A stretch of DNA of 64,000 nucleotides, taken from positions 1 to 64,000 of the forward strand of contig JAAYDW010000050.1 in NCBI GenBank assembly GCA_012729055.1, given 5' to 3'. Positions within the stretch are counted from its first letter, which is position 1; the number at the start of each line of letters is the position of its first letter. Shown here piece after piece: positions 52,813-54,341 of the stretch. This DNA is from Deltaproteobacteria bacterium. GTDB taxonomy: Bacteria > Desulfobacterota > Syntrophia > Syntrophales > Smithellaceae. The notes beneath the pieces were generated by a model that had not been told where the DNA came from, ran no database searches, and saw only the letters and a program-made list of their open reading frames with translations. A program made the position numbers and the translations under genes.

Positions 52813-52829
52813 TCGGAAGGAAGAAGAAA

Positions 52830-54233
52830 ATGGGAGGGCTTTTCGGCGTAGTCAGTCGGGACAGTTGCGTTCAGACGCTCTTTTACGGGACGGATTATCA
52901 TTCTCATCTGGGAACCGAGCATGGCGGCATGGCCGTTTACGGCGCCAAAGGATTTTACAACACCATTCACGGCATCTCGCAGGCGCAGTTCAAATCGCGC
53001 TTTGTCGATGACTACAAGAAAATGGAGGGACATTCCGGCATCGGCGCCATTGACGACGACTCGCCGCAGCCGCTGATTTTTCGCTCCAAGTTCGGCATTT
53101 ACGCGGTTGTGGCCACGGGCCTCATCGCCAACAAGAATGAACTGGTCGCCGAACTGCTCAATGAAGGCGCGTCCTTCACGGAAATGGCCGGCGGAGGCGT
53201 CAACAACGCGGAAATCGTCGCGTACCTGATCAACCGCGGAGATAATATCGTCGAGGGCATTGCCTCCATGCGCGGCATCATCGAGGGATCGATCTGTGTC
53301 CTGGTGCTGACGCCGGAAGGCATTTACGCCGCCCGGGACAAGGTGGGCCGTTTCCCGCTGGCCCTGGGGCGAAGCAAGGATCCCGCCCGGAAATCACACG
53401 TCGTAGCCACGGAAGCCAGTTCCTTTGAAAACCTGGGATACGAGCTTGCGAGATTTCTGGGGCCGGGGGAAATCGTCCTTTTGTCCGACGACGGCGTCCG
53501 GCAGCTCAAACCGGAAGGGAACCAGAAAAAAATCTGCTCTTTTTTGTGGATCTATACCGGTTCTCCCTCTTCCGTTTATGACGGCATCAGCGTGGAGCAC
53601 ACCCGCGAACGCTGCGGCCGCTACCTGGCCAAGCGCGACAGCGTCGAAGCGGACTTCGTCGCCGGCGTCCCTGATTCCGGCGTGGGGCATGCCGTCGGCT
53701 ACGCCATGGAATCCGGCATTCCCTACCGGCGTCCGCTGGTCAAGTACACGCCGGGCTACGGAAGGAGCTACACGCCGCCTACGCAGGAAATCCGCGACTT
53801 GGTGGCGACAATGAAACTCGTGGCGGTGCGGGAGGTCATCAACGGCAACCGGATGATCATCTGCGACGATTCCATCGTCCGCGGCACACAGCTCAAGAAC
53901 CTGACCGTCAAGAAACTCTGGGACAACGGCGCCCGGGAAATTCATATCCGCCCCGCCTGTCCGCCCCTGATGTTTCCCTGCATTTACGCCTCCTCCACAC
54001 GGACCACGGCGGAGCTCGCATGCCGCAAGGCCATGCGCGCCCTGGAAGGCCGGGATCTGGACGAGCCGTCGGACTATCTGGACCCGTCATCGGCCAAGCA
54101 TGCGAAGATGGTGGACTGGATCCGGCGCGACCTCAACGTGACGACGCTGAAATATCTGGAAATCGAAGACATGATCGCGGCGATCGGCCTGCCGTCCGAT
54201 CAGCTCTGCCTGCACTGCTGGCTGGGAAAGTAA
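52830..54233 (+). CDS. PurF-like amidophosphoribosyltransferase lacking the glutaminase cysteine
   Basis: 467 aa with the PurF two-domain layout. The N-terminal Ntn-hydrolase domain begins MGGLFGVVSR: the nucleophile Cys that must follow Met in working PurF is Gly. The normal RYPTAG glutamine-binding block is AIDDDSPQP. The PRPP loop MIICDDSIVRGTQ is intact, and the C-terminal CLHCWLGK could hold a [4Fe-4S] cluster. It may use free ammonia, or have another phosphoribosyl role. I recall similar proteins in anaerobes annotated as PurF, unverified. Confidence 0.85.
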   Translation: MGGLFGVVSRDSCVQTLFYGTDYHSHLGTEHGGMAVYGAKGFYNTIHGISQAQFKSRFVDDYKKMEGHSGIGAIDDDSPQPLIFRSKFGIYAVVATGLIANKNELVAELLNEGASFTEMAGGGVNNAEIVAYLINRGDNIVEGIASMRGIIEGSICVLVLTPEGIYAARDKVGRFPLALGRSKDPARKSHVVATEASSFENLGYELARFLGPGEIVLLSDDGVRQLKPEGNQKKICSFLWIYTGSPSSVYDGISVEHTRERCGRYLAKRDSVEADFVAGVPDSGVGHAVGYAMESGIPYRRPLVKYTPGYGRSYTPPTQEIRDLVATMKLVAVREVINGNRMIICDDSIVRGTQLKNLTVKKLWDNGAREIHIRPACPPLMFPCIYASSTRTTAELACRKAMRALEGRDLDEPSDYLDPSSAKHAKMVDWIRRDLNVTTLKYLEIEDMIAAIGLPSDQLCLHCWLGK

Positions 54234-54245
54234 AACGCAAGACAA

Positions 54246-54297
54246 GGCGGCTTAACGCAGGTCGGCAATGCAGGACCGCGGGGCCGCCTTTTTTTTA
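54246..54297 (+). terminator. Intrinsic terminator after the PurF-like gene
   Basis: GGCGGC (54246-54251) pairs with GCCGCC (54283-54288), followed by a run of eight T. The loop is large (31 nt) and may have inner pairing. Confidence 0.65.
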
Positions 54298-54341
54298 TTT
54301 TCGCAAAGCCGTCGGGAATGCCCCTCTTCGCAAAATAGCCG

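Follow-up and report, generated by a model that had tools for sequence, protein, structure and literature searches.

The window (the whole stretch of 64,000 nucleotides analysed here, contig JAAYDW010000050.1 of the Smithellaceae assembly GCA_012729055.1) carries at positions 52830-54233 of the forward strand a single open frame of 467 aa, the product of which starts with MGGLFGVVSRDSCVQTLFYGTDYHSHLGTEHGG and is identified by its translation, NCBIfam and solved-relative matches as a relative of PurF with glycine at position 2 (hereafter Gly-PurF). PurF, the first enzyme of purine synthesis, catalyses its committed step and is a textbook ammonia-channelling amidotransferase. Position 52830 is the earliest ATG, GTG or TTG downstream of the previous in-frame stop, and a purine-rich, ribosome-binding-like ggaaggaag, picked by eye, precedes the ATG (52815-52823, +). 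The gene is flanked by coaD and ispG and lies outside any purine operon. On its 3' side, at 54244-54299, an inverted repeat followed by a T run appears terminator-like by eye.

Gly-PurF falls below the NCBIfam cut-off for purF (TIGR01134; 218.6 bits, cut-off 350), and GATase_7 was its sole Pfam match at E up to 0.1 (35.6 bits). Among proteins of solved structure, B. subtilis PurF is the closest relative (E 4.6e-61). In an alignment of the two proteins, Cys1 is absent from Gly-PurF and Gly2 of the Met-Gly-Gly start (52830-52838, +) stands beside it; besides, Arg26 is exchanged for Leu27, the Arg-Tyr-Ala-Thr block is lost, Asn102 is changed to Thr96 (giving Thr96-Gly97 for the canonical Asn-Gly; 53115-53120, +) and Asp127 to Asn126 (53205-53207, +). 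We take Arg26, the Arg block, Asn102 and Asp127 of canonical PurF to be glutamine-site residues. Where canonical PurF reads ..LQHRGQ and has its Arg26, residues 22-29 of Gly-PurF form the family hallmark DYHSHLGT (52893-52916, +). The phosphoribosyltransferase (PRT) features are kept, namely the PDS pyrophosphate loop (PDSG, residues 281-284; 53670-53681, +), the flexible loop 305-329 with its invariant K305, R312 and K329 (53742-53816, +) and the DDSIVRGT PRPP loop (DDSIVRGTQ, residues 346-354; 53865-53891, +), in which Gln354 replaces the canonical Thr. So are the four Fe-S cysteine positions: Cys236 as the first ligand (53535-53537, +), Cys384 (53979-53981, +) and Cys460-x-x-Cys463 (54207-54218, +).

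An AlphaFold2 model built on an alignment of 37 family members (pLDDT 91.2, pTM 0.90) predicts an Ntn plus type-I PRT fold across the whole chain, the only segment with a pLDDT below 50 being 308-311 in the flexible PRT loop. Among solved structures, those of PurF from Arabidopsis, Bacillus and E. coli match it best (Z 37.8-41.8, over 419-424 aligned residues). The first modelled strand (3-9) comes immediately after Gly2, and against chains of 1ao0, 1gph and 1ecb the first aligned pair places model residue 2 on chain residue 1; Gly2 therefore takes the predicted place of the nucleophile.

Conservation and phylogeny of Gly-PurF

Relatives came from two sources: a scan of one genome per species, which yielded 79 loci, and 198 genomes sampled from the window's phylum, 33 of which encode Gly-PurF (two of these as pieces or a fragment). 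The nearest named relatives belong to Smithella and Syntrophaceae, the other named members to Clostridia and one Shapirobacteria MAG. Altogether, 127 full-length relatives were extracted: 109 Gly-PurFs (108 without a duplicate), 11 members of a sister group and seven canonical PurFs. Left out of the 108-member set were the truncated L069, L088 and L124, the N-terminal fragment L123, and L004, which is the same gene as L002.

The aligned 108 members begin with M-G-G (94) or M-S-G (14), and because all of them start in one of these two ways, the Met-Gly start is not a sequencing fault. Upstream sequence could be read in 147 rows, some of them duplicates, and none of these offers another in-frame start with Cys after it. 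None of the 108 members retains Arg26 or the Arg block, one retains the glutamine-site Asn (lost in 107/108) and two retain the Asp (lost in 106/108). The 14 Ser2 members likewise lack Arg26 and the Arg block; as judged from the alignment, their serine is a conceivable nucleophile that could in principle act in place of the cysteine. By comparison, P281, D282, S283, D347, S348, V350, R351, G352 and T353 of the pyrophosphate and PRPP loops are present in 108/108, as are Gln354 and all four Fe-S cysteine positions. D22, Y23, H26, G28 and T29 of the hallmark are likewise found in 108/108, and H24 and S25 in 107/108; a few members fetched later differ at residues 28-29. The conservation of DYHSHLGT and Gln354 suggests a new constraint rather than drift.

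A first-pass annotation, made from the letters of the window, had described a PurF-like protein with Met-Gly for the Met-Cys start, without the Arg-containing glutamine-binding block and with the PRPP loop and C-terminal cysteines retained. The alignment, the position of Gly2 on Cys1 in the model and the 108/108 counts for the block, loop and cysteines confirm this description. Its expectation that the enzyme should not use glutamine gains support as well, because the nucleophile and the glutamine-site residues are lost throughout the family.

As the observation that would overturn this expectation, the annotation had named a cysteine at position 13 (52866-52868, +) that might be exposed by processing and then act as the glutaminase nucleophile. 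Cys13 is indeed present in 103 of the 108 members of this first set, but where Gly-PurF is the only PurF found (Gly-only genomes, see below), just 21 of the 37 readable proteins have it, the other 16 carrying A, S, T, M or V. Together with the alignment of the modelled chain from Gly2 on Cys1 and the loss of Arg26 and the Arg block in 108/108, this makes a processed Cys13 nucleophile very improbable.

The loss of several catalytic residues might also be expected of a pseudogene-like decay product of a purF duplication. However, the dN/dS of the window gene against seven close relatives ranges from 0.025 to 0.117 where dS is unsaturated (rough values, with dS often >1), and dN/dS is equally low in the N-terminal half and the PRT half, which contradicts decay. 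Gly-PurF is under purifying selection. Besides, in an unrooted tree of 42 sequences, to be read with a long-branch warning, three groups separate: Gly-PurF (100/100), the sister group that retains Cys (99/95) and canonical PurF (100/100); the family thus forms one group, and it is spread over Deltaproteobacteria, Clostridia and one CPR MAG. We give the pseudogene explanation next to no credence.

The sister clade, found in 11 genomes of the window's phylum, comprises the nearest relatives of Gly-PurF (37-42% identity). Its members, for instance L268:6668-8074, L272:7237-8616 and L273:641-2014, keep Cys1 and HRGQ, have lost the Arg block and the Asn, and carry PMS in the pyrophosphate loop, where Gly-PurF has PDS. 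With the cysteine kept and the Arg block and Asn lost, they might represent a half-way stage, a proposal we make tentatively and jointly with the two-set scheme discussed below.

Gly-PurF beside and in place of canonical PurF

The first-pass annotation had suggested a search of the genome for a second, Cys-containing PurF. Such a gene is present: the window's genome (113 contigs totalling 3.36 Mb, completeness 100) encodes a canonical PurF at G000:C9:207810-209135 (495 bits), with Cys, HRGQ, GHVRYST and HNGN (sequence ...REECGVFAIYGH), behind carA (C9:201879) and carB (C9:204532) and on a different contig from Gly-PurF, which lies on C26. Coexistence is common. In 19 of the 21 Gly-PurF genomes of the window's phylum that were profile-searched, canonical PurF scores over the cut-off; of the other two, one has a fragment at a contig end that narrowly misses it, and one has no match. 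In a Bacillota sample, Gly-PurF occurs in 18/299 genomes, 17 of which also have a canonical PurF over the cut-off. In one of the clostridial genomes the two genes are adjacent on the same strand (G462:C7:63508-66402). Where both coexist, Gly-PurF must be a second enzyme and not a replacement.

Other genomes are Gly-only. Of the 18 genomes behind the chosen loci, 11 have a canonical PurF over the cut-off and seven have no canonical match, and six of these seven encode PurD over the cut-off (53/60 across all genomes searched for PurD). In Acidaminobacter hydrogenoformans DSM 2784, a purL-purC-purM-purN-purH-purD run, with all genes over NCBIfam cut-offs, lacks purF, and the only PurF found is a Gly-PurF elsewhere on the same contig; Catonella morbi ATCC 51271, likewise Gly-only, has a purE-purM-purN-purD run, again with all genes over these cut-offs. 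The seventh genome, the 0.6-Mb Shapirobacteria MAG G198, gave no PurD in the profile search. Its Gly-PurF gene (L070:6001-7398) lies between miaB-like and miaA-like frames, named by eye, in a CPR genome where neither PurD nor canonical PurF was matched, which might reflect transfer, mis-binning or a different role. In the two-PurF genomes G071, G125 and G205, PurD over the cut-off was not found either.

The pattern is clearest in the clostridial family of G209. Its 120 genomes divide into 51 with canonical PurF only, 39 with only a below-cut-off match, 12 with both (the below-cut-off matches being assumed to be of the Gly type, and that of G601 being a fragment), 17 with none and one (G559) with a canonical fragment. 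Canonical and below-cut-off PurF avoid each other in this family (Fisher p = 4e-8, kinship ignored). We fetched 38 of the 39 below-cut-off-only loci, the 39th, G209, being previously known, and 38/38 are Gly-PurF; of the 37 with a readable N-terminus, 31 start with M-G-G, four with M-S-G and two with M-G-A. In 30 of the 38 loci the gene sits within a purine gene run, usually ordered purE-(purC)-GlyPurF-purM-purN-purO-purH-purD, and eight lie outside such runs, two of them on contigs <5 kb. Canonical purF loci of the same family, of which 6/63 were fetched, adjoin purE, purC or purM in all six cases. Gene names in these loci follow the best match to reference proteins named by NCBIfam, or by Pfam for the IMP cyclohydrolase-like gene; the clostridial purC reference protein itself scores below the NCBIfam cut-off. 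Thus, the purF slot of clostridial purine operons looks to have been taken over by a paralogue, Gly-PurF. The Gly-only genomes include many MAGs, in some of which contig breaks may hide a canonical purF: in G559, canonical purF is cut by the contig end within purE-purC-purF (G559:C91; L318:4107-4511), so assembly breaks can hide this gene.

An alternative is that the protein has left phosphoribosylamine synthesis and serves as a PRPP-binding regulator, or couples PRPP to another nucleophile, the DYHSHLGT pocket binding some other ligand. The near-complete invariance of DYHSHLGT and the full invariance of Gln354 in the 108 members would suit such a role, as would the canonical PurF alongside in most genomes of the two phylum samples and the one CPR genome without PurD. 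Yet Gly-PurF occupies the purF slot, some genomes that carry other purine genes yielded no PurF besides it, and its PRPP and pyrophosphate loops are unchanged. We consider this departure from purine synthesis unlikely; the idea of a mere paralogue with an unrelated role is weakened by the Gly-only genomes.

A second CarB that co-occurs with Gly-PurF

The window's genome encodes a second CarB (CarB2) at G000:C107:3807-7004 (L219:3807-7004), away from carA and, with Gly-PurF on C26 and CarB2 on C107, on a separate contig from the former. Among the matches listed, identity to this protein splits at >=62% versus <=56%; CarB2 copies share an identity of 0.64-0.97 within their class and 0.42-0.55 with the other CarB class, and both ATP-grasp E-x-N-P-R motifs are present in the copies checked. 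CarB scoring covered the two or three top-ranking candidates of each genome at E up to 1e-200 and missed CarB fragments. Among the matches listed, CarB2 is present in at least 62/198 genomes of the window's phylum and at least 38/299 of Bacillota.

Again among the matches listed, CarB2 is enriched in genomes with Gly-PurF, both in the window's phylum (24/33 versus 38/165 of the others; Fisher 9e-8, kinship ignored) and in Bacillota (12/18 versus 26/281; Fisher 3e-8, kinship ignored); G158 (a fragment) and G077 (in two pieces) were treated as Gly genomes in these tests. The two genes are direct neighbours in eight genomes of the window's phylum and in G201, G409 (twice), G385, G306 and G226, and sister-clade purF genes lie directly downstream of CarB2 in 10/11 cases. 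The pairing of Gly-PurF and CarB2 is not obligate: 28 of the 62 CarB2 genomes of the window's phylum have neither Gly-PurF nor a sister-clade PurF among the matches listed, and CarB2 was not found among the CarBs read or scored in the clostridial Gly genomes G202, G204, G206, G207, G210 and G462.

Across 50 Gly-PurF genomes, at least 33 encode CarB2, and these 33 have one CarA in 27 cases, none in three (G167, G209, G476) and two in three (G272, G388, G497). A second CarA is found in five CarB2 genomes, the last-named three plus G404 and G380, in which it could serve CarB2. Among the matches listed, CarB2 is the only CarB found in 19 genomes (G415, G500, G305, G474, G312, G458, G341, G357, G370, G387, G476, G209, G010, G033, G084, G150, G158, G159 and G167), of which 18 have no CarA match and four (G158, G167, G209, G476) encode Gly-PurF. 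As these CarB2-only genomes are without an intact CarA, CarB2 seems able, from its genomic distribution, to work without this glutaminase subunit; it might still use CarA where CarA is present. The CarB2-only genome G158 contains a CarA fragment with two stop codons (G158:C144:3183-3458) that looks like decay of the glutaminase subunit.

Proposed function

Dozens of clostridial genomes yielded no PurF other than Gly-PurF, so the enzyme probably takes its nitrogen from free ammonia and not from glutamine. We thus consider it likely, on the strength of sequence and genomic context, that Gly-PurF is a PurF paralogue without glutaminase activity that makes phosphoribosylamine from PRPP and free ammonia via its intact PRT half. 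The possible use of ammonia had already been raised in the first-pass annotation, and the genomic replacement of canonical PurF lends it support. Co-occurrence with CarB2 points the same way, as do E. coli PurF variants without the Cys (see below). On the other side stand the coexistence with canonical PurF in most genomes of the two phylum samples, the position of the window's gene outside a purine operon, the genomes with no PurD over the cut-off and the Ser2 members. PRPP would bind the intact C-terminal site; NH3, the presumed nitrogen source, would arrive at the sugar carbon either from solvent or by way of the remodelled N-terminal domain; and the presumed product, phosphoribosylamine, would be released together with pyrophosphate. 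DYHSHLGT and Gln354 may mark an N-terminal domain that has been re-fitted, perhaps, as we conjecture, admitting NH3 or holding the PRT site closed. In a Smithella-like host, Gly-PurF would offer a route for plentiful ammonium beside canonical PurF.

Amidotransferases with split subunits are known, and by this precedent the PRT half of Gly-PurF could be active on ammonia from a separate glutaminase docking in trans, be it CarA, a canonical PurF subunit within a mixed oligomer or another such enzyme; the window's genome, which encodes canonical PurF as well as CarA, has such donors to offer. Gly-only genomes, however, lack canonical PurF, G209 is also without a CarA match, and no recurring stand-alone glutaminase appeared among the neighbour clusters identified (part of all clusters), so that we deem an in-trans donor improbable and favour the direct use of free ammonia.

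Some clostridial genomes place canonical purF amid other nitrogen genes. In G201, it lies between pyrG-glmS-guaA-purA-asnB-amt(PII)-glnA and carA-carB (NCBIfam and Pfam names; the GSIII name comes from a Pfam match of the G210 copy), and similar clusters holding canonical purF occur in G210, G203, G207 and G441; in the 20 kb read from G208, carA-carB, glmS, pyrG and asnB are present and purF is absent. Matches to canonical purF or carA-carB guided the choice of these six genomes. In the corresponding loci (L241, L239-L240, L242, L243, L245), the ammonium transporter is fused to PII. Canonical purF lies <=12 kb from carA in 6/24 two-PurF Bacillota genomes. In G207, G208 and G210, Gly-PurF is inside a purine operon (L099, L106, L111), a layout compatible, for this group, with a glutamine set serving when ammonium is scarce and a putative ammonia-using PurF serving when it is plentiful. 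A search of eight loci (canonical-PurF clusters and one purine operon) at Rfam gathering thresholds gave no match, and nitrogen control of the canonical-PurF clusters is therefore a putative reading of their gene content.

Tentatively, these observations could be joined into a scheme in which many anaerobes possess two parallel sets for nitrogen entry into nucleotides: a glutamine set (canonical PurF, CarA-CarB) for ammonium scarcity, perhaps clustered in some Clostridia with GSIII, Amt-PII, AsnB, GuaA, PyrG and GlmS, and a glutaminase-free ammonia set (Gly-PurF, CarA-independent CarB2) for plenty, with some lineages having dropped the glutamine PurF. We hold this two-set scheme, the clustering of its glutamine branch included, to be possible but rather doubtful. 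If Gly-PurF has indeed given up glutamine, some anaerobes would start their purines on free ammonia via Gly-PurF in the purF slot, and the enzyme would fall into line with CarB2 in an account of nitrogen economy that is simple and can be checked. On the same condition, similarity-based naming of Gly-PurF proteins as glutamine amidotransferases would call for caution.

Comparison with known systems

Searches of the open-access literature, a scope outside which most subscription journals fall, retrieved no bacterial glutaminase-less PurF family and no CarB without CarA, nor, within the same scope, a replacement of canonical purF in purine operons, a half-way sister clade or a link to CarB2. An ammonia-type carbamoyl phosphate synthetase is known from vertebrates, where CPS1, an amidotransferase relative, uses free ammonia; it is unrelated to Gly-PurF, and the parallel would be a mechanistic analogy only.

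With canonical PurF (EC 2.4.2.14; 1gph, 1ao0, 1ecb), Gly-PurF shares the predicted whole-chain fold, the PRPP and pyrophosphate loops, the Arg and Lys of the flexible loop, the four Fe-S cysteine positions of the Bacillus type, from which a cluster is predicted, and the clostridial purine-operon slot. It differs in lacking the Cys nucleophile, Arg26 and the Arg block, in the almost invariable loss of the glutamine-site Asn and Asp, in Gln354 for Thr, in the DYHSHLGT hallmark and in scoring below the TIGR01134 cut-off. The sister clade shares the loss of the Arg block and Asn with Gly-PurF, yet keeps Cys1 and HRGQ and has PMS for PDS.

In E. coli PurF, according to Brown et al. (2011, PMC3261824), exchange of the Cys for Ala or Ser abolishes the use of glutamine, and ammonia can still be used. 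The same authors describe crenarchaeal PurF', a PurF paralogue without the N-terminal Cys that exists beside canonical PurF, has Ala or Val in many members, is encoded near purF and was proposed to be possibly ammonia-dependent (PMC3261824). As far as this description goes, PurF' is the closest precedent for a Cys-less, ammonia-dependent PurF, there a proposed possibility (PMC3261824), and, if our reading of Gly-PurF is true, cultured bacteria (Acidaminobacter, Catonella) would supply proteins with which to put the archaeal idea of 2011 directly to the test. Compared by description, both lack the N-terminal Cys, and the window's genome has a canonical PurF too. Gly-PurF is set apart, again by description, by its Gly or Ser, by being bacterial and by sometimes being the only PurF found; besides, the window's gene, unlike that of PurF', is not next to purF or purine genes, whereas many clostridial members do adjoin purine genes.
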